Assembly: GCF_001280005.1 (NCBI RefSeq)
Contig: NZ_LGDW01000348.1
Location: forward strand, 1 to 64,000
Length of the DNA: 64,000 nucleotides
Origin: Streptomyces sp. NRRL WC-3618
GTDB taxonomy: Bacteria; Actinomycetota; Actinomycetes; Streptomycetales; Streptomycetaceae
Reading direction: 5' to 3'
Positions within the stretch are counted from its first letter, which is position 1; every line of letters starts with the position of its first letter. A program made the translations under genes and the position numbers. Of this stretch, positions 5,480-21,667 are shown piece after piece. The notes beneath the pieces were generated by a model. The model was not told where the DNA came from. It saw nothing but the letters and a program-made list of their open reading frames with translations, and made no database searches.

Positions 5480-6112
5480 ATGCAATCTGCTGCCGTGGAC
5501 CTTCCGGACACGTTCGACGAGCCCCTCACCGAAGCCGTCGTCGATCTCGTGCTGCGGGGTATGTGGCGCGGCCGGCCGGAGTCCGAGCACCGTCCACTGG
5601 TCGACGCCGGACTGGCGATGGTCAAGGGGCCCGTGGTGCTGCCGACCGAGCGGGCCAAGGCCGCCGCCGCGCAACTTCTGCGGGTTCCCGCAGGTGGTGA
5701 GCAGGAAGAGCGGATCACCGGGGCATACGAGGCGTTCCTGCCGGTCAACCGGAAGATCCGCGATGTGTGCACGGCATGGCAGTGCCGCCCCGACGGCACC
5801 GCCAACGACCACTCCGACGACGTCTACGACGCCGGAGTGCGCGAGTCGCTGGAAGACGTGCACGAGGCCATCCAGCCCGTCCTGCGCAGACTGGACCTGG
5901 TACTCGCGGGCAGCGGACGGTATCTGACGGCCCTGGAGGAAGCCCTCGACCGTTTCGACGACGGCGCGCCGGCCTGGCTGGCCTCGCCGCTGTGCGACTC
6001 ATACCACACCGTCTGGATGCGGCTGCACCAGGAGCTGCTGCTCGTCCTGGGCATCAGCCGGGCCGAGGACGAGGCCCGCGAAGAGGAACTGGTCACCAGG
6101 AGCCGGGGTTGA
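5480..6112 (+). CDS. Helical protein of unknown function, coupled to the PEP-utilising enzyme
   Basis: This 210-residue soluble protein has no signal peptide or membrane segment. It has conserved-looking blocks around residues 90-120 (AFLPVNRKIRDVCTAWQCRP followed by NDHSDDVYD) and 180-195 (CDSYHTVWMRLHQELLL). I recall similar helical segments near actinobacterial PPDK-like proteins, but I cannot name a family. AAAAGG precedes the ATG, which decides this start over upstream in-frame codons. Its TGA overlaps the TTG start of the next gene by two bases, so the two are translationally coupled and probably work together. A role as regulatory or substrate-binding partner is inference. Confidence 0.6.
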   Translation: MQSAAVDLPDTFDEPLTEAVVDLVLRGMWRGRPESEHRPLVDAGLAMVKGPVVLPTERAKAAAAQLLRVPAGGEQEERITGAYEAFLPVNRKIRDVCTAWQCRPDGTANDHSDDVYDAGVRESLEDVHEAIQPVLRRLDLVLAGSGRYLTALEEALDRFDDGAPAWLASPLCDSYHTVWMRLHQELLLVLGISRAEDEAREEELVTRSRG

Positions 6113-8706
6113 GCGTCACCGACCGCGAGGCGGGCCCTCGCGCACACTCAGAGGCGGCCTCCGAGGCGGCCTTTGCGGCCCCCAGCCGGATCCTCGTGCC
6201 CTACGGGCAGGGACGGATCCGGGGCCTCGACGCCGAGGAGCTGGGCGCGCACGGCGCGGCGATGGACCGGCTGGTGGCCCTCGGACTGCCGGTCGTGCCG
6301 GGGCTCACCGTGCCCGCCGGCGCCGCCGCGTCGCTGTGCGGGACCGACACCGCCGAGGCCGCCGTACAACTGGTCGAACAACTCTCGGGGCGGCACATCG
6401 GCGACCCGGCCCGGCCGCTGCTGCTGCGGCTGTCGGCGAGCGCGCCCACCGAGATCGCCGGACTGCCGCCCGACCTGGCCTGCCTCGGCGTCACCCCCGC
6501 CGGTGCCGGCGACCTGTGCGCCGTCATCGGGCGCGCGGACGCGCTGTACGACGTGTGGGGCACCACCGTCCGCATGATCGCCGAGTACGCCCTCGACGTA
6601 CCCGGGGCAGTGCTCGACGACGCCCTCCTGGACACGCCCGGACCGCGGGAACGGGTGGCGGCGCTGCTGTCCCTGGTGGCGGAGCACGGCTCCCGGCCCT
6701 TCCCCGACGACCCGGCGCAGCAGCTCGCGCTGGCCGCCCGCGCCCTCCTCGCCCGGTGGGACTCGCCGCGTGCGAGAAGGTCCCGCCGGTCCCAGCGGCT
6801 GCCCGCCGAACTGGCCGTCGCCCTGCATGTACAGGCCCTGCGCATCGGCCCGGCGGACCACTCGGGCCACGGCACGGCCGTCAGCCGCGATCCCGAGACC
6901 GGGCGCCTCGCTCCGCAGGGCGCCTTCTTCCGAGGGGTGCGCCGCAGCGCCCCGCCGCCGCACACCGGGGAACCCCTGGACCGGCTCGCGGGCGGCACCG
7001 CACTCCTTGAGCACTCCCTGCTCACCCTGGAGCGCCATCTACGCGCCCCGGTGTCGGTCGACTTCGAGGTGCGCGACGACGAGATCTCCCTGCTCGCCGC
7101 CTCGGCGCAGCTCCGGCCGCCACTGCGGGCCTCGGTGTGCCTGGCCGCGGACCTGGCCCGGGACGGGGCGATCGGCCACCACGAGGCCGTACGCCGGATC
7201 ACGCCCGCGCAGGTACAGGAACTCCTGCACCCCCAACTGCGGTTGACCGGCGGTGAGGAGCTCCTGGTGAAGGGGCTGCCGGCGTCGCCGGGAGCCGCGA
7301 CCGGCGCGGTCGTCCTGACCAGTGAACGTGCTCTCGAACTGGCCGCGGACGGTACACGGGTCGTGCTCGTGGCCGCCGAGACGACCCCGGCGGACGTCCC
7401 GGGGATGCTGGCGTCCGTGGCCGTACTGACCGGCAGCGGTGGCATCGCCTCGCATGCCGCCGTGGTGGCCCGGGGCGCCGGCAAGCCCGCGGTGTGCGGC
7501 GCCGAGGGACTGCGCGTGGACGTGGCCGCCGGGACGGTCCGCTTCGGGGAGCGGGTCGTCCGCGAGGGCGACCCCGTCTCGCTGGACGGCCGGACCGGCG
7601 CCGTGTACGCGGGGACGCTCAGCGTCAGTGTCGCCGGACCGCCGCCCGAGCTGTCCACCCTGCTGGAGTGGGCGGACGGCACCCGCCGGCTGGGCGTACG
7701 CGTCAACGCCGACACGGCCGCCGAGGTGGAAACGGCCCTCGCCCTGGGCGCGGAGGGTGTCGGTCTGTGCCGTACGGAACACCAGTTCCTCGGCGATCGG
7801 CTGCCGCTGATCCGCCGGATGCTGCTGGCCGCCGACCCGGCCGCCCGCGACGAGGCGCTGTCGGCGCTGGAGCGCGCCCAGCACGAGGACTTCCGCGCCC
7901 TGCTGACCGCCGTGGGCGACCGCCCGGTGACCGTGCGCCTGCTGGACGCGCCGCTGCACGAGTTCCTGCCCGCGCCCGGTCACGCCCTGGACGCGGCCGA
8001 GGAGCAGCGGGCCGCCGCGCTGCGCGAGGCGAACCCGATGCTCGGGCTGCGCGGGGTACGGCTGGCGCTGCTGCACGAGCGGCTCTACCCGGCGCAGGCC
8101 GAGGCGCTGTTCACCGCCTGGGCCGAGGTCGCCGCCACCGGCGTCCGGCCGGCGCTGGAAGTGATGATCCCGCTGGTCAGCCTGCCCGAGGAACTGGCCG
8201 CCGCGGCCGCGTACGTACGCGGTGCCGCGGACGCGGTCGCTGCCCGCACCGGGGTGGAGGTCCCCTACCGGCTCGGCACGATGATCGAGACGCCGCGGGC
8301 CGCGCTGCTGGCCGGCGAACTCGCCGAGCACGCCGAGTTCTTCTCCTTCGGCACCAACGACCTCACTCAGCTCACCTACGGGTTCTCCCGGGACGACGTC
8401 GAGCGGCAGGTACTCGCCAACTACCAGGAGCGCGGATTCCTGACCGCCAGCCCGTTCGCGCGGCTCGATCCGCACGGGGTGGGCGCGCTGATCGCCCTGG
8501 CGGTCGAGCGGGCGCGCCAGGCGCGGCCCGGTATCAAGCTGGGCGTGTGCGGTGAGCACGGCGGGGACCCCGAGTCGATCGCGTTCTGCGACGACCTCGG
8601 CCTCGACTACGTCTCCTGTTCCGCGCACCGCGTGCCGGTGGCCCGGATGGCGGCAGCGCACAGTGCCCTGCGGGAGCGGTACGACGACAGCGGGAGCGCA
8701 CGATGA
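6109..8706 (+). CDS. PEP-utilising enzyme related to pyruvate phosphate dikinase, degenerate ATP domain
   Basis: Translation is placed at the TTG at 6109, preceded by AGGAG and overlapping the previous stop, giving 865 residues, close to PPDK length. The central swivelling domain has the phospho-acceptor motif GGIASHAAVVARGAGKPAVCG with His449. The C-terminal PEP/pyruvate barrel is intact: EGVGLCRTEHQF, EVMIPLV, GTMIETPRAAL, SFGTNDLTQLTYG and GVCGEHGGDPESIAFCDDLGLDYVSC with the catalytic Cys837. The N-terminal nucleotide-binding domain is degenerate. The family's GGKGA is GAHGA here (His48 in place of Lys), the SMPGMMDTVLN block is missing, and the QDIEFT...LQTR segment is not preserved. It may move phosphate between PEP, its own His and a partner or substrate without normal ATP binding. 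That is inference. Confidence 0.75.
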   Translation: MSVTDREAGPRAHSEAASEAAFAAPSRILVPYGQGRIRGLDAEELGAHGAAMDRLVALGLPVVPGLTVPAGAAASLCGTDTAEAAVQLVEQLSGRHIGDPARPLLLRLSASAPTEIAGLPPDLACLGVTPAGAGDLCAVIGRADALYDVWGTTVRMIAEYALDVPGAVLDDALLDTPGPRERVAALLSLVAEHGSRPFPDDPAQQLALAARALLARWDSPRARRSRRSQRLPAELAVALHVQALRIGPADHSGHGTAVSRDPETGRLAPQGAFFRGVRRSAPPPHTGEPLDRLAGGTALLEHSLLTLERHLRAPVSVDFEVRDDEISLLAASAQLRPPLRASVCLAADLARDGAIGHHEAVRRITPAQVQELLHPQLRLTGGEELLVKGLPASPGAATGAVVLTSERALELAADGTRVVLVAAETTPADVPGMLASVAVLTGSGGIASHAAVVARGAGKPAVCGAEGLRVDVAAGTVRFGERVVREGDPVSLDGRTGAVYAGTLSVSVAGPPPELSTLLEWADGTRRLGVRVNADTAAEVETALALGAEGVGLCRTEHQFLGDRLPLIRRMLLAADPAARDEALSALERAQHEDFRALLTAVGDRPVTVRLLDAPLHEFLPAPGHALDAAEEQRAAALREANPMLGLRGVRLALLHERLYPAQAEALFTAWAEVAATGVRPALEVMIPLVSLPEELAAAAAYVRGAADAVAARTGVEVPYRLGTMIETPRAALLAGELAEHAEFFSFGTNDLTQLTYGFSRDDVERQVLANYQERGFLTASPFARLDPHGVGALIALAVERARQARPGIKLGVCGEHGGDPESIAFCDDLGLDYVSCSAHRVPVARMAAAHSALRERYDDSGSAR

Positions 8707-9821
8707 CAAGCACCGTCACCGACGGCACGGCTCCGTCGGACACCGAACTGGACGACCTGCGCGAGACCGTCCGGTCGGTGTGCGCCGACGCCGGCGGCAC
8801 CGCCGCGGTACGCCGGCTGTCCGAGGAGGCGCCCGGCATCGACGCCGGTCTGTGGGACGCCCTCGGCCGGCAGGTCGGTCTCGCGGGCCTGGGCCTGCCC
8901 GAGGCGGCGGGTGGAATCGGCGGTCTCGCCGAGATCGCCGTGGTCTGCGAGGAGTTGGGCAGGACGCTGGCACCGGTACCGCTGCTGTCCTCCACCGTGC
9001 TGGCCGGGCAGGTGCTGGCCGCCTGCGGTACGGCCGACAAGGCGCTGGCCAGGCTGGCCGAGGGCACCGTGCACGCCCTCGCGGTGACCGCGCCCGACGG
9101 GACGTGGCGGTCCGACGCCGTGCCGGTGACCGTCTCCTGGCAGGGCGGTGTCCCGTCGCTGGACGGCACCGCGCCGTTCGTCCTCGACGGCGCCGACGCC
9201 GAGGCGCTGGTGGTCGCCGCGGCCGGGACCGACGGCGTCGACCTCTTCCTGGCCGACCCGCGCGAGCCCGGCGTCACGGTGCGCCGGGTGCCCACCCTGG
9301 ACCTCAGCCGGGGCCAGGCGGTGGTCACCTTCTCCGGCGCCCGGGTCCGGGCACTGACCGCCGGCGGCGAGGGGGCGGACATCGTCTCCCGCGCCCTGGA
9401 CGTGGCCCTGGTGGCGCTGGCCGCCGAGCAACTCGGCGGCGCACAAGCCGCGTTGGACATGACGGTGGCCCATGTGCGCGACCGTACCCAGTTCGGCAGG
9501 GCGATCGGCGGCTTCCAGGCCGTCAAGCACGCCTGCGCCGACATGCTCCTCCAGGTAGAGGCCGCGCGGTCGGCCGTAGTACGTGCCGTCCGGACCGACG
9601 GCTCGCCTCCGGCGCTGGCCGAGGCGGCGGCGGTGGCACAGGCGTGGTGCGGCGAGGCGTTCGTCTCCGTCGCCGCCGAGTGCGTGCAGTTCCACGGCGG
9701 GATGGGCTTCACCTGGGAGCACGACGCACACCTCTACTTCCGGCGCGCCCAGTCCGACGCGGTGCTGCTGGGCGGCGCCGCACACCATCGGGAACGGCTG
9801 GCCGGCCTGTTGGGCTGGTGA
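8703..9821 (+). CDS. Acyl-CoA dehydrogenase (short FadE type)
   Basis: This 372-residue protein overlaps the previous gene by ATGA. It has the helical N-domain (GLWDALGRQVGLAGLGLPEAAGG), a weakly conserved beta domain, and a C-domain with VRDRTQFGRAIGGFQAVKHACADM and VQFHGGMGFTWEHDAHLYFRRAQ. That form is common among actinobacterial FadE proteins that work as one subunit of a heteromer with a longer partner, as described for steroid side-chain dehydrogenases. A possible longer partner is at 31274-32509, not adjacent. It probably dehydrogenates a CoA thioester intermediate made within this operon. Confidence 0.85.
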   Translation: MTSTVTDGTAPSDTELDDLRETVRSVCADAGGTAAVRRLSEEAPGIDAGLWDALGRQVGLAGLGLPEAAGGIGGLAEIAVVCEELGRTLAPVPLLSSTVLAGQVLAACGTADKALARLAEGTVHALAVTAPDGTWRSDAVPVTVSWQGGVPSLDGTAPFVLDGADAEALVVAAAGTDGVDLFLADPREPGVTVRRVPTLDLSRGQAVVTFSGARVRALTAGGEGADIVSRALDVALVALAAEQLGGAQAALDMTVAHVRDRTQFGRAIGGFQAVKHACADMLLQVEAARSAVVRAVRTDGSPPALAEAAAVAQAWCGEAFVSVAAECVQFHGGMGFTWEHDAHLYFRRAQSDAVLLGGAAHHRERLAGLLGW

Positions 9822-9846
9822 CACAGAAGGAAGGGAGGGACGGAAC

Positions 9847-10299
9847 ATGTCCACGAGGCTGGTCGACGAGTCCCTGTTCGAGATCCAGGAGTACGGCACC
9901 GCCAGAAGGCCCGACGACGGGGAGCCGCCGCGTCTCGAGGGCGCCCGCTGCTCCGGTTGCGCAACCGTCGTCTTCCCCCGGCAGGACTCGTGCCCTCGCT
10001 GTTCGGAGGGGACGATGTCCGCACAGGTACTGCCGGTGCGCGGGCGCGTGTGGTCGTGGACGCGCCAGGCGTTCCCGCCGAAACCGCCGTACCGGACGCC
10101 CGCGGACGGCCACCTGCCCTATCACGTGGGCTATGTGGATCTCGGTGAGGTGCTGGTCGAGGCGCTGCTGACGGTTCCCCGTACGGAGATCCGGATCGGT
10201 CTGCCGGTGCGGCTGACCACGGCGCCCGCCTACCGGGAAGACAACGGGACCGACGTGGTGACCTTCGCGTTCCGTGCGGAGCGGGAGGGGGAGCGATGA
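9847..10299 (+). CDS. Zn-ribbon OB-fold (DUF35) protein
   Basis: The 150-residue protein has a rubredoxin-like zinc ribbon, Cys35-x2-Cys38 and Cys49-x2-Cys52, followed by an OB-fold (VLPVRGRVWSWTRQAF, LPYHVGYVDLGEVLVEALL). Proteins of this family bind CoA thioesters and pair with SCP2-type thiolases or with MaoC-like hydratases. Its stop overlaps the start of the thiolase gene by ATGA, matching the DUF35-thiolase pairs that form retro-aldolases in actinobacterial steroid degradation. GAAGGGAGGG upstream of the ATG at 9847 fixes the start. Confidence 0.88.
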   Translation: MSTRLVDESLFEIQEYGTARRPDDGEPPRLEGARCSGCATVVFPRQDSCPRCSEGTMSAQVLPVRGRVWSWTRQAFPPKPPYRTPADGHLPYHVGYVDLGEVLVEALLTVPRTEIRIGLPVRLTTAPAYREDNGTDVVTFAFRAEREGER

Positions 10300-11450
10300 G
10301 CCGGCGCGACGACGTGTACGTGGTCGGCTGCGGCATGCGTCCCTTCGGCCGCGACGAGAGCGTCACCGGAATGGACATGGCCGAGGGCGCGATACGCGAG
10401 GCGCTGGCCGACGCCGGCTTGGCCTGGCAGGACATCGGTTTCGCGGCCGGCGGCTCCGACGTGTCCGGCAAGCCCGACACGCTGGTGGGCCGGCTGGGCC
10501 TGACCGGCGTTCCCTTCGTCAATGTGCAGAACGGCTGCGCGACCGGTGCCTCCACCGTCCTCGCGGTGGCGAACGCGCTGCGCGCGGGCGAGGCGTCCGT
10601 GGGACTGGCGGTGGGGTTCGACAAACACGAGCGGGGCGCGTTCCATGTGTCCGCGGCCCGCTACGGCCTGGGCGACTGGTACGCCGAGACCGGCATGATG
10701 CTCACGACGCAGTTCTTCGCGCTGAAGACCCAGCGGTACCTGTACGAGCACGGGATCTCGGAACGGGCACTGGCGATGGTCGCCGCGCGGGCCTTCCGCA
10801 ACGGCTCGCACCACCCCCTGGCCTGGCGGCGCAAGCCGCTGACGGAGCAGGAGATCCTCGACTCCGCCGAGGTCAGTCCCCCGCTCACCCAGTACATGTT
10901 CTGTTCGCCCGGACAGGGCGCGGCGGCCTTGGTGCTGGCGCTCGGCGACCGTGCGTTCGACCTGTGCGAACGACCCGTCAAACTGGCGTCGTTGGCCTTC
11001 CGGACCCGCCGGTTCGGCTCGTTCGAGGTGTTCTCCCCCTGGCTGCCGCCCGGTCCGCACCACAGCCCGAGCATCGACGCCGCGGAGGCGGCCTTCCGCA
11101 CGGCGGGGGTGCGACCCGCCGACGTCCAGGTCGCCCAGTTGCAGGACACCGACAGCGGCTCGGAGCTGATCCACCTGGCGGAGACCGGCCTGTGCGGCCA
11201 CGGCGAGCAGGAGGAGCTGCTGGCCGCCGGCGCCACCGATCCCACGGGCCGGATACCGGTCAACACCGACGGCGGCTGCCTCGCCGGCGGGGAACCGGTC
11301 GGCGCCTCCGGGCTGCGCCAGTTCCACGAGGTCGTACGGCAGTTGCAGGGCCGGGCGCCGGGTGCGCAGGTTCCGGACGCTCCCCGGGTGGGCTTCACCC
11401 ATGTGTACGGGGCGCCCGGGATCAGCGCGTGCTCGGTCCTGACGGTATGA
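10296..11450 (+). CDS. SCP2/Ltp-type thiolase, probable retro-aldolase subunit
   Basis: The 384-residue protein belongs to the thiolase superfamily. The nucleophile region is QNGCATGAST with Cys81, and the C-terminal blocks are NTDGGCLAGGEPVGASGLRQ and HVYGAPGISACSVLTV, the pattern of lipid-transfer-protein-like thiolases. The HP of the usual GGHPIGASG loop is replaced by GGEPVGASG. These enzymes often catalyse retro-aldol cleavage of beta-hydroxyacyl-CoA instead of CoA-dependent thiolysis when paired with a DUF35 protein, as encoded directly upstream with a 4-base overlap. A carbon-carbon cleavage step in the island is therefore the best assignment. Confidence 0.85.
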   Translation: MSRRDDVYVVGCGMRPFGRDESVTGMDMAEGAIREALADAGLAWQDIGFAAGGSDVSGKPDTLVGRLGLTGVPFVNVQNGCATGASTVLAVANALRAGEASVGLAVGFDKHERGAFHVSAARYGLGDWYAETGMMLTTQFFALKTQRYLYEHGISERALAMVAARAFRNGSHHPLAWRRKPLTEQEILDSAEVSPPLTQYMFCSPGQGAAALVLALGDRAFDLCERPVKLASLAFRTRRFGSFEVFSPWLPPGPHHSPSIDAAEAAFRTAGVRPADVQVAQLQDTDSGSELIHLAETGLCGHGEQEELLAAGATDPTGRIPVNTDGGCLAGGEPVGASGLRQFHEVVRQLQGRAPGAQVPDAPRVGFTHVYGAPGISACSVLTV

Positions 11451-11466
11451 GGGGCGGAGGCGAGCC

Positions 11467-11592
11467 GTGCGGCACGGTGACAGAACCGCGCTGGTGACGG
11501 GCGGGGCGAGCGGAATCGGCCTGGAGATCGGCCGGCAGCTCGCGGAGCGGGGTCTTCAGCCTGGTCGGGGCGCGCACGCACGGGGGCTGACC
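11467..11592 (+). pseudogene. Short-chain dehydrogenase stub (5' remnant)
   Basis: Seventeen bases after the thiolase stop, a GTG begins RTALVTGGASGIGLEIGRQLAERG, the unmistakable NAD(P)-binding start of a short-chain dehydrogenase. After about 30 residues the similarity ends abruptly in every frame and no YxxxK site follows before the TetR gene on the other strand. The end given here is approximate. It looks like the 5' end of an operon gene whose remainder was lost when the regulator region was joined. The remaining 11593-11780 shows nothing recognisable. Confidence 0.6.
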
Positions 11593-11780
11593 GGCGGGAT
11601 CGACGTCCTGGTACGCGCCAGGCGCCGGCTCGACCCGCAGGGGCATGGGCGGCCCGGCCGCCCCGCGCGGGCCGGAGGAGGGTGCCGACACCCCGTTCTG
11701 GCCGGCGGCTCCGCCCGAGGCGACGGGAACCGGCGGGCGGACTGTTCGCCGACCGCGGGCCACTGCCCTGGTGAACCGCC

Positions 11781-12467
11781 TCAGGTCCGTGACGTGGCCG
11801 GCTTCTTCGGCTGCGTGGGCTGCGTCGTCGGCTCCTGCTCGGTGGCGACGATGCGCAGTGCCAGTTCCCTGACCGCCTCCAGCACGGACCGGGAGGGCAG
11901 TTGGGACAGCGGTCCGCCCTCCGCCCGCAGCGCGGTGACGAGCATCGTCGTACTGATCAGTGTGCGGACCGCGAGCGCCTGTGCCGCGTGCCTCGCCTTC
12001 GCCGCCCGGGGGCTGCGGGTGGTGCCCTCGGGCAGATAGTCGTAGCCGCGCTGGATGTGGCGCTGCTCGAACTCGTCCCGCAGCACCTTGACGCTGCCGT
12101 TGGCGGAGGCCACCTGGACCTGGTAGAGCCGGGCCTCGTCCGGGTTCTGTTCCACCCACTCCCACACGGCGTCGATGACGCGGACCAGGCCCTCCGCGTC
12201 ACCCGGCTCGGACTCCGGCCTGGCCGCCTCCACGACCGCGTTGAGCTGGTCGAAGACCCGGCGCATGGCGAGTTCGAGCAGTTCCTCCTTGCCGTCGAAG
12301 TGGTAGTAGACGGCGGTGGGCACCACCTGGGCCTCGTCGGCGATGTCCTGGATGCTGGTCTCCGCGAAGCCGCTGCGGCCGAACACCCGCACGGCGGCGG
12401 TGATGATGTGCAGCCGCCGCGAGGGTCGGTGGGCGGGCTGCTTGCCGTTCTTCGTGGTGGCCATCAT
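11781..12467 (-). CDS. TetR/AcrR family transcriptional regulator
   Basis: The 228-residue protein has a TetR helix-turn-helix (RRLHIITAAVRVFGRSGFAETSIQDIADEAQVVPTAVYYHFDGKEELL) in its first 70 residues and an all-helical ligand domain behind it. CAGGGAG lies 7 bases before the first of two adjacent ATG codons (12467, 12464), so longer N-terminal versions are unlikely. The upstream region holds the palindrome ACTGATCAGT at 12513-12522, a natural autoregulatory site. It diverges from a second TetR gene. Its likely targets are the neighbouring catabolic operons; this is context, not proof. Confidence 0.88.
   Translation of the reverse strand: MMATTKNGKQPAHRPSRRLHIITAAVRVFGRSGFAETSIQDIADEAQVVPTAVYYHFDGKEELLELAMRRVFDQLNAVVEAARPESEPGDAEGLVRVIDAVWEWVEQNPDEARLYQVQVASANGSVKVLRDEFEQRHIQRGYDYLPEGTTRSPRAAKARHAAQALAVRTLISTTMLVTALRAEGGPLSQLPSRSVLEAVRELALRIVATEQEPTTQPTQPKKPATSRT
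11950..11963. promoter_or_regulatory. Second copy of the GTACTGATCAGTGT element inside the TetR gene
   Basis: The 14 bases GTACTGATCAGTGT recur exactly as at 12511-12524, and the preceding C also matches. The two copies are 561 bp apart, one inside the minus-strand TetR gene and one just upstream of it. Both contain the perfect palindrome ACTGATCAGT. Chance is possible, but two identical palindromic sites could support DNA looping. Confidence 0.35.
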
Positions 12468-12510
12468 GCTCCCTGCCGGCTGGCGTGAACCCCGTGTCCG
12501 TGGGCCCTGC

Positions 12511-12524
12511 GTACTGATCAGTGT
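12511..12524. promoter_or_regulatory. Palindromic candidate operator ACTGATCAGT upstream of TetR gene
   Basis: A perfect 10-bp palindrome (12513-12522) sits about 45 bases upstream of the TetR start at 12467. That position would block its promoter. The flanking bases extend the near-symmetry to TACTGATCAGTGTA. Confidence 0.45.
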
Positions 12525-12595
12525 ATCCAGTAACTCCGACCGTCCATCCGCGTAATTCCTGCTGCGTATGGCCTCCGGGGCACCGGGATCCCGGC

Positions 12596-12609
12596 ATACT
12601 TGACAGTAT
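12596..12609. promoter_or_regulatory. ATACT-N4-AGTAT inverted repeat over the TetR start codon
   Basis: ATACTTGACAGTAT is a perfect inverted repeat with a 4-base spacer and overlaps the ATG at 12608. CATACT, about 10 bases before the ATG, resembles a -10 hexamer. The message would then be leaderless or nearly so, and a bound repressor would cover the promoter and start. Confidence 0.45.
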
Positions 12610-13254: not shown

Positions 13255-14934
13255 TCACACCAGCAGGCGGAGGGGTTTGCTCAGCAACTCACCGACCGTG
13301 CGCAGGTATTCGGCGGCGGGTGCACCGTCGACGGCACGGTGGTCGAAGGTGAGGCTCAGGGTGAGCACCCGTGTCCGCAGCGGTCGGTCGTCCACCCACT
13401 CGACGCCGTCCCTGAGCCTGCCCACCCCGAGGATCGCGACATTGCCGGGGTTGACCACCGGGGTGAAGAAGTCGACGCCGTATCCGCCGAGCGAGGTGAC
13501 GGTGAAGGTGGCCCCTTCCAGTTGGGTGGGGGAGATCCGGCCCTCGCGCGCGGCCTGGGCCAGCGCCTTCGACCTGCGGGCGATCTCGGGCAGCGGCAGG
13601 GCAACCGCGTCCTCGATCACGGGGACCATGAGGCCGCCCGGAACGGCCACCGCGAATCCCAGGTGGACGTCCTCGAGCAGATGGACGCCGTCCTCGCGCA
13701 CCGTCGCGTTGAGCAGTGGGTGCTCGCGCAGGGCCAGGGCGGCGGCCTTCAGCAGGAAGTCGTTGAAGCTCGGCACCGGCAGGTCGCTGTCGGCCCATTC
13801 CTCCTTGAGACGGTCCCGCAGCGAGACGACGGCGTCCAGCCGCACCTCGTAGCCGTGCGTCAGCTGGGCCATCTCCTGGAGGCTGGCGTGCATCCTGCGG
13901 GCGATGGTGCCGCGCATCCCGGTGAGCGGGATGACGTCGCCGGGCTGAGGAGCAGCCGCGGGACGACGGACAGGCGCCGGGGTGACGGCGTCGAGGTCGG
14001 AGCGGCGGATGCGGCCGCCGGGCCCGGTGCCGTTGATGCCGGAGAGGTCGATACCCCGTTCCTTCGCCAGCTTGCGGACCAGCGGCGAGGTGCCGGTACC
14101 TGTGCCGCCCGGCGGGACCGGCACTACGAGGTCGCCGGAGGCCACGTCGGGCAGGGCAGCGAGGAACTCCTCCACGTCCTCGGAGACGATCCGGCCACCT
14201 GGCCCCGTCCCGCGTACGGCGGTGAGGTCGACGTCGCCGGCCACGGCGACGCGCCGGGCGTTCGGGGAGGACAGCAGGCGGCCACCGTGGCCGTTGACGG
14301 AGGGCGCCGAGGAGGCAGCGCCGGTGCCGGGGCCCGCACCGACGCGGGTGAGGGCCGACGGGGCGCCCGTACCCGCAGCGCCGCCGAGGCCAGGCACGGC
14401 ACCCGCACCCGCACCCGCACCCGCACCCGCACCCGCACCCGCACCGCCAACGTCGGCGGGCAGCGCGCCCAGACCCGCGAGGCCACCGTCCGGGCCGGGC
14501 ACAGCGGCCCCGCCGCCACCACCGCCCAGGCCAGGTACGCCGGTCGCACCCGCGCCACCGGCGGGCCGCGCGCCCAGCTTCGGGTTCGGGTCCGCAGGAT
14601 CGGCGTCCAGGGCGGATCCGGCGGCCGTTTCCGTGCCGGCCCCCGTTCCGGTCGGTGCCGGGGCGCCCGCAGCCCCCGGAAGGTGCTCGCCTTCGGCCAG
14701 CAGCCAGCCGATGAGTGCCCCGGCCGGCACGGTGGCTCCCGCCGGGACCACCGGGTGGAACAGTCCCCCGGCCTCCGCCTCGACGTCCACGTCGACCTTG
14801 TCGGTGGCCAGCCGCAGGAGTGCGTCGCCCTCGGCGACGGCCGCCCCGGTGGGCACCAGCCATTCGTCGATCGTGCCTTCCTGCATGGTCAGGCCGATCT
14901 TCGGCAGCAGAATCTCGACCGCCACGTCGGTCAC
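13255..14934 (-). CDS. 2-oxoacid dehydrogenase E2 (dihydrolipoyl acyltransferase) with two E3-binding domains
   Basis: The GTG at 14934 overlaps the E1beta stop (GTGA), giving 559 residues. Domain order is one lipoyl domain (1-80, lipoyl Lys46 in ATDKVDV), a long Ala/Gly/Pro linker (about 85-215), a first peripheral-subunit-binding domain (about 221-258, SPNARRVA...GTGPGGRIVSEDV), a second (about 283-317, SPLVRKLAKERGIDLSGINGTGPGGRI), and the catalytic acyltransferase domain ending with FDHRAVDG (His532, Asp536). Two tandem binding domains behind a single lipoyl domain are unusual. It moves the acyl group from E1 to CoA. No E3 gene is present, so a housekeeping lipoamide dehydrogenase would be used. 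Confidence 0.92.
   Translation of the reverse strand: MTDVAVEILLPKIGLTMQEGTIDEWLVPTGAAVAEGDALLRLATDKVDVDVEAEAGGLFHPVVPAGATVPAGALIGWLLAEGEHLPGAAGAPAPTGTGAGTETAAGSALDADPADPNPKLGARPAGGAGATGVPGLGGGGGGAAVPGPDGGLAGLGALPADVGGAGAGAGAGAGAGAGAVPGLGGAAGTGAPSALTRVGAGPGTGAASSAPSVNGHGGRLLSSPNARRVAVAGDVDLTAVRGTGPGGRIVSEDVEEFLAALPDVASGDLVVPVPPGGTGTGTSPLVRKLAKERGIDLSGINGTGPGGRIRRSDLDAVTPAPVRRPAAAPQPGDVIPLTGMRGTIARRMHASLQEMAQLTHGYEVRLDAVVSLRDRLKEEWADSDLPVPSFNDFLLKAAALALREHPLLNATVREDGVHLLEDVHLGFAVAVPGGLMVPVIEDAVALPLPEIARRSKALAQAAREGRISPTQLEGATFTVTSLGGYGVDFFTPVVNPGNVAILGVGRLRDGVEWVDDRPLRTRVLTLSLTFDHRAVDGAPAAEYLRTVGELLSKPLRLLV
14401..14442. repeat. Seven tandem ACCCGC hexamers within the E2 linker
   Basis: Seven exact copies of ACCCGC follow one another and encode, on the minus strand, the GAGAGAG stretch of the E2 linker. 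Hexamer gain or loss would change linker length in frame, so this is a likely length-variable site between strains. Confidence 0.85.
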
Positions 14935-15974
14935 GACCTTTCGAGGAGACGCCGGCAGCCCTGGGCGATACGGGCGCGATCGGGCACGTACGCCTTCTCC
15001 AGGACGGGAGAGAAGGGCACCGGGGAGAAGGGGGCGCCGATGCGCAGGACGGGCGCGTCGAGGTAGTCGAAGACGACGTCCTGGATCTGGGCGGCGATCT
15101 CCGCTCCCAGCCCGCCGAAGGTGACCGCCTCGTGCACCACGAGCACCCGGTTGGTGCGGCGGACGGAGGCGAACATCGTCTCGGTGTCCAGGGGTTGCAC
15201 GGTGCGGGGGTCGATCACCTCGATCTCCACGCCCTCGGCGGCGAGTTCCTCCGCCGCCGCGAGGGCCTCCCCCACCATGCGGCCGAGGGCGATCACGGTG
15301 ACATCGGAGCCGTGCCGGGCCGTGTGCGCCTGCCCGAGCGGGATGCCGTAGATCTCCTCGGGCACCTCGCTGGTGCTGCCGAGCAGGACCTTGTTGAGCA
15401 TGACGACGACCGGGTTGTTGTCCCGGATGGCGGAGACGGTCAGGCCCTTGGCGGTGTACGCGTCGCTCGGCATCACCACCTTGAGGCCGGGCACATGGGC
15501 CAGCCAGGCCTCCAGGCTCTGGCTGTGCTGGGCCGCGGCGCCGAGGCCCGCGCCGGAGGCGGTGGTGATGGTGAGCGGCACGGACAACCCGCCGCCGAAC
15601 ATGTACTTCATCTTGGCCGCCTGGTTGACGATCTGGTCGAGGCAGACACCGATGAAGTCCATGAACATCAGGTCGACGACGGGTCGCAGACCCCGCGCGG
15701 CGGCTCCCACGCCGAGGCCGACCAGGGCGGCTTCGGAGATCGGGGTGTCGATCATGCGTCGGGGGCCGAACTCTTCGAGCAGGTTGTCGAACATGCGGAA
15801 CACTCCGCCGTATCCGGCGACGTCCTCGCCGGCGACGAAGACGTTCTCGTCCTCGCGCATGGCCTGCGCGAGACCCTCGTTGAAGGCCTTGACGTAGCTG
15901 AGTCTGCGCGCGGCGGGCACGGCGGCGACAGCGGGTGCTTCGGTGGACGTGGTCATGGCAGTCATGGCGGTCAT
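14931..15974 (-). CDS. 2-oxoacid dehydrogenase E1 beta subunit (TPP-dependent)
   Basis: The 347-residue protein is the pyrimidine-binding half of an alpha2beta2 E1: GEDVAGYGGVFRMFDNLLEEFGPRRMIDTPISEAALVGLGVGAAARGLRPVVDLMFMDF, then the transketolase C-domain (VIALGRMV, EVIDPRTVQPLD, HEAVTFGGLGAEIAAQIQ). The ATG at 15974 overlaps the E1alpha stop (ATGA); in-frame ATGs at 15965 and 15956 cannot be excluded. The sequence style resembles acetoin and pyruvate dehydrogenase E1beta more than branched-chain E1beta. It works with the adjacent E1alpha and E2. Confidence 0.9.
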   Translation of the reverse strand: MTAMTAMTTSTEAPAVAAVPAARRLSYVKAFNEGLAQAMREDENVFVAGEDVAGYGGVFRMFDNLLEEFGPRRMIDTPISEAALVGLGVGAAARGLRPVVDLMFMDFIGVCLDQIVNQAAKMKYMFGGGLSVPLTITTASGAGLGAAAQHSQSLEAWLAHVPGLKVVMPSDAYTAKGLTVSAIRDNNPVVVMLNKVLLGSTSEVPEEIYGIPLGQAHTARHGSDVTVIALGRMVGEALAAAEELAAEGVEIEVIDPRTVQPLDTETMFASVRRTNRVLVVHEAVTFGGLGAEIAAQIQDVVFDYLDAPVLRIGAPFSPVPFSPVLEKAYVPDRARIAQGCRRLLERS

Positions 15975-17035
15975 CCCGAATAGACGTTGAGCAGCAGGTC
16001 GGCGGGGTCGGGCAGCGGGCTCGCCTCCGCGTACGCGATGGCCTCGGCGATCTCGTCGCGCGTGCGCTGCCATACGTCGTCCAGCTCCGCACGGGTCGCG
16101 GTGCCATCGGCGACCGCCCGGGCCTCGATCAGGTCGATGGGGTCGCGGGTCTTCCACTCGGCGACCTCCTCGTCCGAACGGTAGGGATGCCGCAGGCCCT
16201 TGACGCCCTGGTGGTCGAAGAAGCGGTAGGTCTTGGCCTCGATCATCATCGGCCCCTCGCCGCGCCGGGCCCGTTCGACGGCTTCGGTGGCGGCGCGGTG
16301 GACGGCGACCGCGTCCATGCCGTCGACGATGACGCTGGGCATGCCGTAGGCGGCGGCCCGGTCGGCCACGTCGGTGATCAGCATGTGCGCGGACTGCGGG
16401 GTGAACTCGGCGTAGCCGTTGTTCTCGCAGACGAAGACCACGGGCAGGCCGAGGATCGCGGCCATGTTGGCGCCCTCGTGCCAGGCGCCGATGTTGGTGG
16501 CGCCGTCACCGAAGAAGGTCACGGCGACGCTGTCCTCACCCTTGTAGCGGGCGGCGAAGGCCGCGCCCACCGCGATCGGGACGCCGGCCCCGACGATGCC
16601 GTTGGCGCCGAGCATGCCGCGGGTGAGGTCGTTGATGTGCATGCTGCCGCCGCGCCCGAGGCAGGCGCCGGTGACCCGGCCGTACAGCTCGGAGTACATC
16701 TCACGGAAGCCGACTCCCTTGGCCACGGCGTGCCCGTGGCCGCGGTGCGTGGAGGTGATCTGGTCGTCGTCGCGCAGGGCCGTCATCACTCCGGCGGCCA
16801 CGGCTTCCTGGCCGACATAGAGATGCAGGAAGCCGGGCAGTTTGCCCGCCTCCATGAGTTTGCCCGCCTCGGTCTCGAACAGCCGGATGCGCACCATGCG
16901 CTCGTGCAGGTCCTTGAGGACCCGCGGGCCGATCTGTGGGCTGACCTGCTGGGTGACCTGCTGGGTCACCTGTGGGGCGACATGTGCGGTGACCTGCGGG
17001 GTTTTCTTCGACGCCGTCGACGCTCGTTGAGCCAT
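15971..17035 (-). CDS. 2-oxoacid dehydrogenase E1 alpha subunit (acetoin/pyruvate type)
   Basis: The 354-residue protein binds thiamine diphosphate through GDG(176-178)...NN(205-206) and carries RGHGHAVAKGV and GRGGSMHINDLTRGMLGANGIVGAGVPIAVGAAFAARY, typical of the acetoin-dehydrogenase-like E1alpha class. It decarboxylates a 2-oxoacid or acetoin-like substrate and reductively acylates E2. AAGGGG before the ATG at 17035 supports the start over an upstream in-frame codon. Residues 13-37 form an odd Q-V-T repeat, absent from typical members. It is the first gene of the E1alpha-E1beta-E2 operon, and its upstream region holds a candidate operator. Confidence 0.9.
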   Translation of the reverse strand: MAQRASTASKKTPQVTAHVAPQVTQQVTQQVSPQIGPRVLKDLHERMVRIRLFETEAGKLMEAGKLPGFLHLYVGQEAVAAGVMTALRDDDQITSTHRGHGHAVAKGVGFREMYSELYGRVTGACLGRGGSMHINDLTRGMLGANGIVGAGVPIAVGAAFAARYKGEDSVAVTFFGDGATNIGAWHEGANMAAILGLPVVFVCENNGYAEFTPQSAHMLITDVADRAAAYGMPSVIVDGMDAVAVHRAATEAVERARRGEGPMMIEAKTYRFFDHQGVKGLRHPYRSDEEVAEWKTRDPIDLIEARAVADGTATRAELDDVWQRTRDEIAEAIAYAEASPLPDPADLLLNVYSG

Positions 17036-17094
17036 CGTCCGCCCCTTCGTCCGAGGGAGGTTGCCAAGCAATCGGACTTACTTGTGCCGGTCTA

Positions 17095-17136
17095 CAGTAA
17101 CCAGCACGGGGCACCTTACTGAACAGCGTCTCTAAT
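17095..17136. promoter_or_regulatory. Operator candidates upstream of the E1alpha operon
   Basis: Two overlapping signals lie here. CAGTAA (17095-17100) and TTACTG (17116-17121) are exact inverted arms around 15 bases. ACTGAACAGCGTCTCTAAT (17118-17136) matches 15 of 19 bases of the element at 4519-4537. The position, 60-100 bases upstream of the E1alpha start, fits repressor control of the dehydrogenase operon. Confidence 0.45.
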
Positions 17137-17592
17137 TACTATGCCCCGGACCCGGGTCGCCGCCGCGCGCGTCCACCAGCTCCACGACGCCGCCCTCCGG
17201 ATCCGACCAGAAGCCGATCCGCCGACCGCGCGCGAGGACGACGACAGGGTCCGACAGGGGCCGGGCACCCGCGGCCGACAGCGCCTCCACCACCGGGCCC
17301 AAGTCGTCCAGATGGAAGGGGAGATACGACAGCCCCATACGCCCGGCCGGCAAGGGCGTCCCGCATGCCGACACCGCACCCGACCGGGGAAGGATCAACT
17401 GACACACCCCCCGGAAGGCACCCGCAGCCAGACGACCGCGAGCTCGCCGCCGAGCACGGCAGGCCCGCCGATCGACTCGGGCACGCACGAGCGGCGCTCG
17501 ACACGGCAGCCGATGACGTCACGGCAGAAGCGCTCCATCAGCGCCAGATCCCGCACCACCACACCCACCTCGAACGGCCGCGTCACGACCAT
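17132..17592 (-). pseudogene. Frameshifted VOC/glyoxalase-like protein
   Basis: Reading minus from 17592, VVTRPFEVGVVVRDLALMERFCRD to VVWLRVPSGG is the first half of a vicinal-oxygen-chelate protein. The second half (QLILPRSG, GLSYLPFHLDDLGPVVEALSAAGA, GFWSDPEGGVVELVDARGG) continues in another frame to 17132. The switch falls at the six-G run (plus-strand C run 17407-17412), and one added base would restore an uninterrupted protein of about 153 residues. Either the gene is broken or the base run was misread. Its 3' end runs into the operator region of the E1alpha gene. Intact relatives bind a metal and act as lyases, dioxygenases or isomerases. Confidence 0.7.
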
Positions 17593-17740
17593 CACACCCA
17601 CCCCCACGTGACACCGAGCGGCGACTTCGACACTTTCTATTGACAGAGCACACTAAGTCCTGTTGTCGTTTCGGACACAACCCAGCTGTCGCGTTCAGAA
17701 CCGGTCACCGGCTCGCGGCTGGGAGGATTGTGAGGACATC

Positions 17741-19057
17741 GTGGTCCAGACCAGTTCGCCGGAGATTCGGGAACCAGGCGCCGAGCGCAGGTCGCCGGTC
17801 TCGGCGCCCTCCGCCCCGTCCGCCCCCTCGACCCCCGAATACTCGTCGTGGATCAGCCAGGACCGATCCACTGACGCGGCATCGCGAACGATGCGGCGGG
17901 AGGCGGCGGAACTCGTCGAGCGGGTGACGGCGCACTACCGCGACAACACCACGCACCAGGCGGACGGCCAGTGGACGGAACCCGTGGCCAACTACCTCGA
18001 CGCCGACCGCTGGCAGCGCGAGACGGACGCCGTCCACCGGAGCGTCCCGCTGCCGCTCGCCATGTCCTGCGAGCTGCCGGGGCCGAACACCTACAAGGCG
18101 ATCGACGTGCTCGGCATCCCCGTGCTGATCACCCGTGACCGACAGGGCACCGTGCACGCGATGATCAACGCCTGCCGGCACCGGGGGGCCAAGCTCCTCG
18201 AACCCGGCTGCGGGGTGTCCAAGCGGCTCACCTGCCCGTACCACTCCTGGTCGTACGACCTGGCCGGCGAGCTGCGGGGCGTGTATGCCGAGAAGACCTT
18301 CGGTGAGGTTCCGCGCGAAGGCCGCAGTCTCGTCGGACTTCCCGCCGGGGAGCGGGCGGGCATCGTCTTCGTCTCCCTGGACCCGGCGGCCGAGCCCGAC
18401 CTGGACGGCTGGCTGGGCGATCTGCTGCCACTGCTGGAGGGCATGCGGCTGGCCGACTGCCACCACTACTCCACCAGCTCGCTGACCAGTCCCAACTGGA
18501 AGGTCACCCTCGACGGATATCTGGAGACGTACCACTTCGCCTCGCTGCACCCGAAGACGGTGTTCGAGACGAACCTCTCCAACATGATGGCCCACGACAC
18601 CTGGGGCCCTCATCAGCGCATCGCACCGGCCCTGCGCCCGATCGCGCAGGCGGTCGAGCTGCCGCCGGACCAGCGCGACCCCGGGGAGTGTGTCGGCCCC
18701 ATCTACTGGCTCTTCCCGGGCCTCGCCATCGCCGGCGGCTGGCGCCAGAAGATCGCCGTGTCCCTGGTACTCCCCCGGACGGCGACCGAGTCGGTGACCC
18801 AGCAGATCATCCTGCTGCGGGAACCGGCGGTCACCGACGAGGAACGCCAGGTCGCCGACCGGTTCGGCGAGTGGTTCCACGAGGTGGTCCGCGACGAGGA
18901 CTACGCGACCACCTACGGAGTCCAGCAGGGTCTGAAGGCCCTGGCCGGGACCGACTTCGTCTTCGGACGCAACGAGCCCGGACTCCAGCACCTCCACCGC
19001 ACCATTCACCAGCACCTGGACGCAGCCGCCACAGCAGCCCCCAGAGCCGCACGGTGA
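17741..19057 (+). CDS. Rieske non-heme iron oxygenase, large (alpha) subunit
   Basis: The 438-residue form starts at the GTG at 17741, preceded by GAGG. The Rieske domain ligands are Cys145-x-His147 and Cys165-x2-His168 (CRHRG, CPYHSWSYDL). The catalytic domain has DGYLETYHFASLHP, giving His265 and His270 as mononuclear iron ligands. It should hydroxylate or demethylate a substrate with O2 and electrons from a ferredoxin or reductase; candidates are encoded at 23383 and 36236. It lies 30 bases upstream of an SDR, a common pairing in which the SDR oxidises the hydroxylated product. No beta subunit is present. Confidence 0.9.
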   Translation: MVQTSSPEIREPGAERRSPVSAPSAPSAPSTPEYSSWISQDRSTDAASRTMRREAAELVERVTAHYRDNTTHQADGQWTEPVANYLDADRWQRETDAVHRSVPLPLAMSCELPGPNTYKAIDVLGIPVLITRDRQGTVHAMINACRHRGAKLLEPGCGVSKRLTCPYHSWSYDLAGELRGVYAEKTFGEVPREGRSLVGLPAGERAGIVFVSLDPAAEPDLDGWLGDLLPLLEGMRLADCHHYSTSSLTSPNWKVTLDGYLETYHFASLHPKTVFETNLSNMMAHDTWGPHQRIAPALRPIAQAVELPPDQRDPGECVGPIYWLFPGLAIAGGWRQKIAVSLVLPRTATESVTQQIILLREPAVTDEERQVADRFGEWFHEVVRDEDYATTYGVQQGLKALAGTDFVFGRNEPGLQHLHRTIHQHLDAAATAAPRAAR

Positions 19058-19086
19058 ACAACCAACAAGACTCGCGGGAGAACACC

Positions 19087-19878
19087 ATGGTGGCTAAGGG
19101 CAGCCTCGACGGACGTGTCGCGGTGATCACGGGCAGTACGCGCAGCATCGGCCGCGCCATCGCCGAGGCATTCCTCGCCGACGGGGCCACGGTCGTCGTC
19201 AGCGGCCGTTCCGAAGTCAAGGGCAAGCAGGCCCTGGAGGAGATGGGCGCCGGGGACCGGGCCGTCTTCCACCCCTGCGACGCCAACAGCCAGGCGGACA
19301 TCGAGGGCCTCGCCGACTTCGCCGCCGAGCGCTTCGGCAGGCTCGACATCTGGGTGAACAACGTGGGCGGCAGCTCCGGCTTCGCCCCCATCCACCAGCT
19401 CAGCGACGAGGCGTGGCACGACGCCCTCAACCTGAACATCAACGGCTACTTCTACGGCACCCGCCGGGCGCTGCCGAAGATGCTGGCGGGCGGCTGGGGC
19501 CGCATCATCAACATCTCGTCGGTGGAGGGCAAGCAGGCCAACAAGCCCGCGATCAGCCACTACATCACCAACAAGCACGCCATCCACGGCCTGACGAAGG
19601 CGACCGCCTTCGAGTACGGCACCCAGGGAATCACCTGCAACGCCATCTGCCCCGGCGCCGTCGACACCGACCTCATGCGGGCCGCGGGTCCCGCGGCGGC
19701 GGCGGCCGAGGGCATCTCGTACGAGGAGTGGCTGGGCCGGTTCGCCGAGCACGCCGCCACCAAGACGATCACCACCGTGGAGCAGGTCGCGGCGGTCGCC
19801 TCGCTGCTCGCGAGCGACGCCGGGGCGGGTATCACCGGCACGCTGATCAGCGTCGACGGCGGTACGGCGCAGTGGTAG
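19087..19878 (+). CDS. Short-chain dehydrogenase/reductase
   Basis: The 263-residue classical SDR has the nucleotide motif TGSTRSIGRAIAEAFLADG, NNVGG, the Ser of INISSVEG and the catalytic YITNK, with a C-terminal VDGG. It should oxidise or reduce an alcohol/ketone with NAD(P)H in the cytoplasm. CGGGAG before the ATG at 19087 supports the start. It is directly downstream of the Rieske oxygenase and probably acts on its product. Confidence 0.9.
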   Translation: MVAKGSLDGRVAVITGSTRSIGRAIAEAFLADGATVVVSGRSEVKGKQALEEMGAGDRAVFHPCDANSQADIEGLADFAAERFGRLDIWVNNVGGSSGFAPIHQLSDEAWHDALNLNINGYFYGTRRALPKMLAGGWGRIINISSVEGKQANKPAISHYITNKHAIHGLTKATAFEYGTQGITCNAICPGAVDTDLMRAAGPAAAAAEGISYEEWLGRFAEHAATKTITTVEQVAAVASLLASDAGAGITGTLISVDGGTAQW

Positions 19879-19930
19879 GCCGGGGACGGTCAGGGGCGGG
19901 CACCGGTACGGACGGCGGGAGATGTCGGGT

Positions 19931-21667
19931 ATGAAGAGCTGGATCACGGACTGGCAGCGCAGTGAGCGGCTGCCGCACTACACCCGGGCCAACGCGGGCG
20001 AAACCCTGCCGGAGCCCGCCAGCCCGCTGGGCTGGACTCTGGTCTGGGGGCGGGGCCTGCGGGGCTGGCGGCGCGGCTTCGTCGGATTCGGGATCTACCG
20101 CGACGAGGAGGTGGCCGGGCCCCGACCGCCGTTCGTCGGCATGTTCGGCGGCTACTTCTACCTGAATCTGTCCCACATGCGGCTGTTCGGTATCCGGATG
20201 GGCCAGACGTCGGACCAGATCGACGCGGCCTTCGTCGGTCAGCGCTCCGACACGCCCGTGCACGCGGCGCACCCGGACGACCAGGACCAGGAGCTCACCG
20301 CAAAGGCGGGCGCGACGCTGGGGCGGATGCTCGGCCAGGCCGGTTTCCCGGAGGCCGACGCCGACCGGGAACGGCTGCGCGCCCTGCGCCACTCCCGCCC
20401 CGACCTGACGGGGCTGTCCGACACCGAACTGGTGGCACACGCACGGTCGTTGCTGGACGAGGTGGAGACCACCTTCCAGCGGCACGTCGAGTCGTCGCTG
20501 CCCGCGTCCGTCGGACCGGCGATCCTCGGCCCGCTCTGTACGAGTGTGGACCGCCCCGGCGCCATGCTCGACCTGATCGGCGGTCTCGGCGACGTCGACT
20601 CCGCCTCCCCCTCGACCGGGCTGTGGACGCTGTCCCGCCAGGTGGCGGCCTCGGCGGAGCTGACCGCCCTGTTCGACCGGGGTACGGCCGCGGTGGAGCA
20701 GGCGCTCGACGCCGCGACCGGGGACGTGAAGGCGTTCCGGGACTCCTTCGAGGAGTTCCTGGCAGAGTCCGGCGACCGCGGTCCCAACGAGTGGGACATC
20801 CACGCGCTGTCCTGGGAGGCGGCGCCCGTCCAGGCGCTGGCCCTCGTCGACCGGATCCGGCGCAGCCCCGACGACGACTCCCCGGCCGCCCGCCGAACGC
20901 GGCTGACCGAGGGGCGTGAACGGACGGCCCGGGAGATCCGGGCCGCGCTGCCCGAGGAGACGCGGCCCATGTTCGACGCCGGCATGCATGCCTCCCAGGT
21001 GTGGATCCCGGCCCGCGAGCGCACCAAGGCGAACTGCGTCACCGTCGTCAACGAGATCCGGATGGCCGTACGGGAACTCGGTCGCCGGGGCGTCGAGGCA
21101 GGGCTGTTCGCCCGGCCCGAGGACGTGATGATGCTGCTGGAGACCGAACTGGACGACTATGTCGCCGCCCCGGAGTCCTTCGGCCCCGTCATCGCGCGGC
21201 GGCTGGAGGAGTACGCGGGCCTGCACGAGCTGGAGCCGCCGTTCTTCGTCGCCGACGACGCGGGGACCGAGATCGACACCTGGTCGCGCCGCGCCGAGGA
21301 GCGGACCCCGGCGGCCGTCGAGGGTGATGTGCTCGGGGGTGTGGGCGGCAGCCAGGGCACGTACACCGGCAGGGTGCGGGTGGTCACCGACCCGGCCTCG
21401 TGCGAGGCGCTGGAGCCCGGGGAGGTGCTGGTCGCCCCGATCACGGACGCGGCCTGGACCCCGCTGTTCCTGGTCGCCGGTGCGGCCGTCGTGGACGTGG
21501 GCGCGCTCAACAGCCACGCCGTGGTGGTCTGTCGTGAGCTGGGCATCCCGGCCGTGATCTCCGTCGAGAGCGGGACGCGACGGCTGCGGGACGGCATGGT
21601 GATCACGGTCGACGGCGAGCGGGGAACGGTCACCGTGGACAGCGTCCCGGCGTCGCTCGGCAGTTGA
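19931..21667 (+). CDS. PEP-utiliser-like protein with C-terminal phospho-histidine domain and novel N-terminal region
   Basis: The ATG at 19931 has GGGAG 10 bases upstream; the in-frame ATG at 19922 sits directly on that motif and is less likely. The 578-residue product ends in a swivelling domain (VLVAPITDAAWTPLFLVAGAAVVDVGALNSHAVVVCRELGIPAVI) whose His529 is the expected phospho-acceptor of PEP-utilising enzymes. There is no ATP-grasp domain and no PEP-binding barrel. Residues about 1-480 are mostly helical with a Trp/Tyr-rich start (DWQRSERLPHYTRAN, FGGYFYLNLSHMRLFG). The middle resembles the substrate-recruiting part of rifampin-phosphotransferase-like proteins only loosely. It could be the substrate-handling half of a split phosphotransferase with the protein at 6109-8706. 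That is inference. Confidence 0.65.
   Translation: MKSWITDWQRSERLPHYTRANAGETLPEPASPLGWTLVWGRGLRGWRRGFVGFGIYRDEEVAGPRPPFVGMFGGYFYLNLSHMRLFGIRMGQTSDQIDAAFVGQRSDTPVHAAHPDDQDQELTAKAGATLGRMLGQAGFPEADADRERLRALRHSRPDLTGLSDTELVAHARSLLDEVETTFQRHVESSLPASVGPAILGPLCTSVDRPGAMLDLIGGLGDVDSASPSTGLWTLSRQVAASAELTALFDRGTAAVEQALDAATGDVKAFRDSFEEFLAESGDRGPNEWDIHALSWEAAPVQALALVDRIRRSPDDDSPAARRTRLTEGRERTAREIRAALPEETRPMFDAGMHASQVWIPARERTKANCVTVVNEIRMAVRELGRRGVEAGLFARPEDVMMLLETELDDYVAAPESFGPVIARRLEEYAGLHELEPPFFVADDAGTEIDTWSRRAEERTPAAVEGDVLGGVGGSQGTYTGRVRVVTDPASCEALEPGEVLVAPITDAAWTPLFLVAGAAVVDVGALNSHAVVVCRELGIPAVISVESGTRRLRDGMVITVDGERGTVTVDSVPASLGS

Follow-up and report, generated by a model that had tools for sequence, protein, structure and literature searches.

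A catabolic island of Streptomyces encoding a candidate PEP-driven small-molecule kinase

Gene content of the island

The stretch of DNA analysed here (64,000 nucleotides, referred to as the window) belongs to the 9.3-Mb genome of Streptomyces sp. NRRL WC-3618. Two relatives of PEP-utilising enzymes are encoded on its forward strand: an 865-residue relative of PPDK (6109-8706) and a 578-residue HpeH/RPH-like protein (19931-21667; an in-frame ATG is found three codons upstream of this start). Both open reading frames were confirmed, as was their separation by about 11 kb within one catabolic locus, which the original prediction had reported. Because of this distance, and because the genes in between lie on both strands, the two genes do not form one operon. 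A third gene, p210 (5480-6112, forward strand, 210 residues), was absent from that prediction and lies directly 5' of the 865 gene. The latter starts with TTG, and its start overlaps the stop of p210 by four bases (TTGA).

The surrounding genes form a conserved catabolic island at approximately 3249-37240. When 60-kb regions of six other Streptomyces were searched with tblastn, all 28 tested genes were found in five of the regions and 27 in the sixth (G331), the gene missed there being the histidine phosphatase; ten genes beyond the borders of the island gave one weak match altogether. Pfam matches within the island include two Rieske oxygenases and a 2Fe-2S reductase, acyl-CoA dehydrogenases, thiolases with a ChsH2-like partner, and short-chain and zinc dehydrogenases. 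E1 alpha and beta subunits, an AMP-binding ligase, a histidine phosphatase, two TetR regulators and a sugar-type ABC transporter were also matched; reading frames for an enoyl-CoA hydratase and an E2 were named by eye. Upstream of the 578 gene lie a Rieske oxygenase alpha subunit (17663-19057, forward strand; these are the coordinates of the reading frame and the start is provisional) and, immediately 5', a short-chain dehydrogenase (19075-19878, forward strand). A second Rieske oxygenase alpha subunit is encoded on the reverse strand (23694-25331). The histidine phosphatase (branch 1; 34316-34921, forward strand) had been predicted at 34316; it has an ATG there together with the RHG motif, and is a candidate phosphate remover.

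An SCP2-type thiolase, preceded by a ChsH2-like zinc ribbon/OB protein, was observed at 9820-11450 of the window. This pair resembles the aldolase pair of steroid side-chain breakdown, and hints at a branched or ring substrate.

Domains and motifs of the encoded proteins

The 865-residue protein matches PPDK almost end to end, and its best match in the PDB is maize PPDK, with the same domain order: a decayed ATP-grasp domain, a phospho-His domain and a PEP barrel. Its TIGR01828 score (693.7 bits) falls below the cut-off of 843.45. Pfam recognised PEP-utilizers and PEP-utilizers_C in this protein, with no PPDK_N match at E 0.001. The GGKGA motif of canonical PPDK is replaced by GAHGA (residues 46-50; 6244-6258, forward strand), and the SVRSGA, PGMMDT and LQTR motifs are absent. 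The original prediction had pointed to the GAHGA replacement and to the loss of PGMMDT; the decay extends to the other two motifs. Lacking the ATP-site motifs of a competent PPDK, the protein is not an ordinary member of that family. The phospho-His residues of both proteins had been placed correctly, that of the larger one being His449 (codon 7453-7455, forward strand). An intact PEP barrel with Cys837 had also been proposed. The barrel motifs are indeed present, and the Cys of CGEHGG, which we take to be the active-site Cys of PPDK, is Cys814 (codon 8548-8550, forward strand); 837 is a later Cys.

For a comparison across the 865 type, 16 members were aligned together with the canonical PPDK of this genome and six short PPDKs; the members came from Streptomyces, from other actinobacteria and from metagenome contigs. 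SVRSGA and LQTR are missing in all 16 members, as is GGKGA (15 rows span this motif, and the sixteenth, G633, was judged from its full reading frame). CRTEH, VRLLD, GTND, the Cys of CGE-GG and the swivel His are retained in 16 of 16. The residue two positions before the swivel His is Ala throughout the type, where canonical PPDK has a Thr that we take to be regulatory. Among 15 of the aligned rows of the type, 142 of 360 positions are invariant in the barrel versus 62 of 380 in the decayed ATP domain. Most of this family is named 'PEP-utilizing enzyme' in the databases. Judged by its motifs, the 865 protein appears to be a PPDK relative that lacks an ATP site and has kept the PEP-barrel motifs and phospho-His449.

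The decay of the ATP domain would also fit a different role, in which the 865 protein, as an inactive PPDK, would have been retained as a partner with a structural or sensing function, while the 578 protein would exchange phosphoryl groups between substrates. There is a precedent for the second half of this idea, as HpeH alone transfers phosphate from 4-phosphoacetophenone to acetovanillone, according to the accessible text of PMC12167813. However, the universal retention of the PEP-barrel motifs and the swivel His, and the many invariant barrel positions, make this role very unlikely, and exchange alone would yield no net phosphorylation.

The 578-residue protein had been described as a phospho-His domain (His529; codon 21515-21517, forward strand) following about 480 residues that could not be assigned. 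The former part of this description stands, PF00391 being the sole Pfam match in the copy that was scanned, while the latter does not. In the family models of RedH, PigC, RPH and 'PEP synthase', it is the region after the ATP-grasp domain that matches the protein; RPH/RedH/PigC-type sequence matches begin at residue ~231, and the predicted RPH fold extends throughout. The AlphaFold2 model, built with 34 sequences, has a mean pLDDT of 92.0 and a pTM of 0.91, and its best solved relatives over the whole protein are RPH structures (TM 0.71 by query length). Arg362, Glu363 and Lys366 align with RPH Arg666, Glu667 and Lys670, residues with a role in phosphoryl transfer (PMC4844700, accessible part). 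Arg362 and His529 are invariant, and Glu363 nearly so, in 34 rows of the 578 family. The fold and the catalytic Arg-Glu are thus shared with RPH, RedH and PigC; unlike these enzymes, the 578 polypeptide has no ATP-grasp domain. The model and alignments indicate that it is the substrate-binding half, with the C-terminal swivel domain, of an RPH/HpeH-type kinase. HpeH is described likewise, with the ATP-grasp part residing in HpeI, in the accessible text of PMC12167813. The analogy originally drawn with anaerobic phenylphosphate synthase, whose PEP-synthase-like domains are divided between subunits, fits the fold of the 578 protein (same source).

For p210, neither Pfam nor NCBIfam gave a family match, and it is therefore not a recognised HPr. 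Its model (pLDDT 92.3) combines a winged-helix-like N-terminal part with a bundle of long helices, for which fold searches returned generic helical bundles only and no family. Across 31 rows, no variation was seen at Phe86, Asn90, Tyr148, Gly162, His176, Trp179, His183 and Arg194. The p210 gene is located immediately 5' of the 865-type gene in eight of nine non-Streptomyces loci, the exception being G708. Relatives lie immediately 5' of a short PPDK in five loci, and adjoin a 578-type gene in G212 and G471. Hence p210 adjoins either donor type (865 or short PPDK). It may be a carrier, a docking helper or a regulator.

Proteins of ~770-800 residues with a swivel-like N-terminal part, a middle part and a p210-like C-terminal part were observed in three loci (L236:4354-6660, L237:4056-6431 and L240:5703-8030). 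The N-terminal part gave a PF00391 match for G708, and was read as swivel-like by eye for G471 and G441.

The winged-helix-like part of p210, and the fact that some database entries name its relatives transcriptional regulators, bring up a regulatory role for the 865 protein. It could be a PEP-driven protein phosphotransferase that senses, for example, PEP/pyruvate and phosphorylates p210 as a regulator, with the 578 protein not being fed at all. Enzyme-I-type proteins do have regulatory roles. This explanation is nevertheless quite unlikely, as p210 relatives also occur as the C-terminal part of the swivel-containing fusions, and the 865 type co-occurs with the 578 family as strongly as with p210.

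Co-occurrence and possible phosphoryl donors

The original prediction depended on the two genes being found together in other genomes, which is the case. Among 391 Streptomycetales genomes, an orthologue of the 578 protein (at least 84% identity) is present in 16, and the 865 type is present in the identical 16, the pair lying on one contig and one strand, where 13 to 16 kb separate the two starts. One further member of this order, G212, has a 40% relative of the 578 protein without the 865 type. Of 394 Actinomycetes genomes, 14 carry the 865 type (E ≤1.6e-71; next match 3.6e-38), 18 the 578 family (E <1e-60), and 13 both. The exceptions are G708, with the 865 type only, and G402, G424, G441, G456 and G471 (five of the 18), with the 578 family only. 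Five genomes (G000, G030, G032, G038 and G048) are shared by the Streptomycetales and Actinomycetes samples. In a tree of 34 rows of the 578 family, a subset of the relatives found, neither partner type forms a single clade: six label changes are needed for the 865-type genomes and three for the short-PPDK genomes. Six of the eight short-PPDK rows fall in one clade (100/100), and the other two are on long, unsure branches.

In distant genomes, the genes of the island are present in altered order. Five small genomes have four 578-type genes apiece, G550 and G633 have two, and G407 has one. Within the fetched stretches of 865-type genomes, some of which end at contig ends, a Rieske gene is found at most 5 kb from 16 of 25 578-type genes, and a histidine phosphatase gene from 15 of 25. 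Neither gene was found beside nine listed 578-type genes of the genomes with the 578 family only. In L205, L206, L212, L217 and L218, 578-type paralogues occur as pairs separated by a few kb, and a histidine phosphatase gene lies next to or within the pair; a Rieske gene is present in four of these five loci.

The idea that one ATP dikinase had been split in two could not be upheld. No gene for an ATP-grasp subunit was found in the window using Pfam and a whole-genome PPDK_N search; the locus encodes a PEP-binding protein instead. In this genome, PPDK_N matched only the canonical PPDK (contig C236) and a free-standing 393-residue protein (contig C457). On the latter contig (L010:7000-10085), the 393-residue ATP-grasp gene adjoins a gene for a 612-residue HpeH-like protein, which shares 31% identity with the 578 protein over 290 columns. 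This pair looks like a separate, ordinary split dikinase. Since a free-standing ATP-grasp gene is present beside an HpeH-like gene, an ATP donor from elsewhere in the genome is possible. The 578 protein could accordingly be a subunit of an ordinary ATP kinase that receives its phosphate in trans from a distant ATP-grasp protein (the HpeI-like one on C457 or the canonical PPDK), and the 865 protein would have another job. A loose partnership of this kind would be normal, as HpeH and HpeI form no stable complex in the accessible text of PMC12167813, and ATP-type short PPDKs are found in the genomes with the 578 family only.

The distribution of PPDK_N makes charging in trans unlikely. Among the 25 genomes with the 865 type that formed the base of this comparison, G633 (5.5 Mb, rated 100% complete with 0% contamination) carries both types and gave no PPDK_N match, while 13 of 14 named genomes matched as a positive control. 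The four swivel-domain matches of G633 are two 578-type genes, the 865-type gene and one PtsI-sized reading frame. In G187, G289, G536, G550, G638 and G708, the matches listed are only pieces of one PPDK-sized reading frame each, taken as the canonical PPDK by the HMM pieces and the length of the frame (two of three pieces for G550); all but G708 carry both types. In the fetched stretches near the 25 578-type genes of non-Streptomyces 865-type genomes, the 865-type gene was the only ATP-grasp gene found, and the seven ATP-grasp matches there lie within this gene itself. Charging in trans would also leave the co-occurrence of the two genes unexplained. PtsI-like proteins could act as alternative PEP donors; the one in the window's genome (C16) was identified by reading.

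Genomes with the 578 family only appear to use another arrangement. PPDK-type ATP-grasp reading frames of 442-580 residues are present in all six (G212 included). Six short PPDKs were aligned (from G402, G424, G456 and G471, together with G001 and G452), and the ATP motifs are present in six of six and the barrel motifs in none; those of G441 and G212 were judged by reading-frame length and HMM range only. As the aligned short PPDKs have ATP motifs and no barrel motifs, the donor seems to be one or the other remnant of PPDK: PPDK minus the ATP site, or PPDK minus the barrel. The short PPDK and 578-type genes are loosely linked: they share a locus in G471, are about 30 kb apart in G212, and in the remaining genomes lie at a great distance or on different contigs. 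In L235, L241, L242, L243 and L244, a short PPDK with ATP motifs and without PEP-barrel motifs is directly 3' of a p210-like gene.

A possible PEP-driven kinase and its precedents

On balance, the 865 and 578 proteins probably form a PEP-driven small-molecule kinase. The best reading of the sequences and the model is that the 865 protein would charge the 578 protein from PEP, and the 578 protein would phosphorylate a substrate of the Rieske/CoA pathway. PEP would phosphorylate His449 in the manner of PPDK or PTS enzyme I, and the phosphoryl group would then pass to His529, either directly or via p210; a phosphate relay between the two proteins had been raised in the original prediction. The swivel domain of the 578 protein would dock back on its own pocket to phosphorylate a substrate hydroxyl. 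A Rieske oxygenase and a dehydrogenase would next act on the phosphate-tagged substrate, after which the histidine phosphatase may take the phosphate off ahead of the CoA-dependent steps. Alternatively, this phosphatase may reset a phospho-His, as SixA does on NPr (PMC7948535, accessible part). The order of tagging, oxidation and dephosphorylation is proposed by analogy to the Hpe pathway, where the carboxylase accepts the compound only in its phosphorylated form and a phosphatase acts afterwards (PMC9618137, accessible part). Where several 578-type paralogues accompany one 865-type gene, a single donor may serve several substrate-specific acceptors.

This PEP-driven reading is supported by the predicted loss of the ATP site across the 865 type, which retains the PEP and His motifs, the RPH fold and catalytic residues of the 578 protein, the co-occurrence of the two, the lack of PPDK_N in G633, the lack of an ATP-grasp neighbour in the fetched stretches, the short PPDKs of 578-only genomes and the position of p210 beside either donor. 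DhaKLM, a PEP-fed soluble small-molecule kinase, is a precedent for the use of PEP instead of ATP (PMC6643234, accessible part). The lack of a common operon for the 865 and 578 genes, the ATP-grasp gene on C457, the 578-only genomes, G708 and the PtsI-like proteins count against it. A more detailed version is a PEP phosphorelay running from His449 of an enzyme I-like 865 protein to an invariant His of an HPr-like p210, and from there to His529 of several 578-type kinases. This would be a soluble PTS-like system for the activation of catabolic substrates that arose from PPDK when the ATP site was lost, and other actinobacteria would have an ATP-fed sister form (short PPDK and p210); in this full form the reading is tentative and rather unlikely.

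The aerobic route had been thought new in itself, which no longer holds: aerobic split kinases that use ATP, HpeHI and CreHI, have already been published (accessible parts of PMC12167813 and PMC9618137). The novelty would therefore lie in PEP replacing ATP. Searches of the open-access literature revealed no account of an RPH/HpeH-type kinase served by a PEP donor that derives from PPDK. As far as the accessible accounts go, HpeHI, CreHI and PpsAB (phenylphosphate synthase) resemble the present system in their RPH-type substrate subunit with a C-terminal swivel domain, the phospho-His near the C-terminus and the catabolic gene setting. They differ in that the 578 locus has no HpeI-type ATP-grasp gene, and a PPDK relative with a PEP barrel is found there instead. 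Compared with PPDK, the 865 protein is alike in domain order, sequence, swivel His and PEP-barrel motifs, yet is set apart by the missing ATP motifs, the Ala in place of Thr before the His and the score under the TIGR01828 cut-off. As in the PTS and DhaKLM, PEP would feed a phospho-His chain to a small-molecule kinase; in contrast to them, the acceptor is an RPH-type domain and the donor a PPDK relative. Phosphorylation of rifampicin by enzyme I has been reported in vitro, where ATP served as the donor and PEP did not (PMC13099321, accessible part).

If correct, the PEP-driven reading would extend the split small-molecule kinases, a newly recognised group, by a PEP-fed branch. It would also provide a natural switch of energy donor, with one site decayed and the other kept, and an ATP-fed sister arrangement for comparison. 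The reason why such catabolic routes start with phosphorylation is unclear according to the accessible text of PMC12167813, and the island makes the purpose of this initial step testable in ordinary streptomycetes. A testable role would be given to the 'PEP-utilizing enzyme' family and to the unannotated p210 family.

Among 61 loci from named genomes, 42 have a 578 orthologue at 82% identity or more, and three of the 42 belong to Lentzea. In these three (L083, L085 and L091), the 578 gene is 84% identical to that of this Streptomyces; the island has therefore probably moved between families by horizontal transfer.
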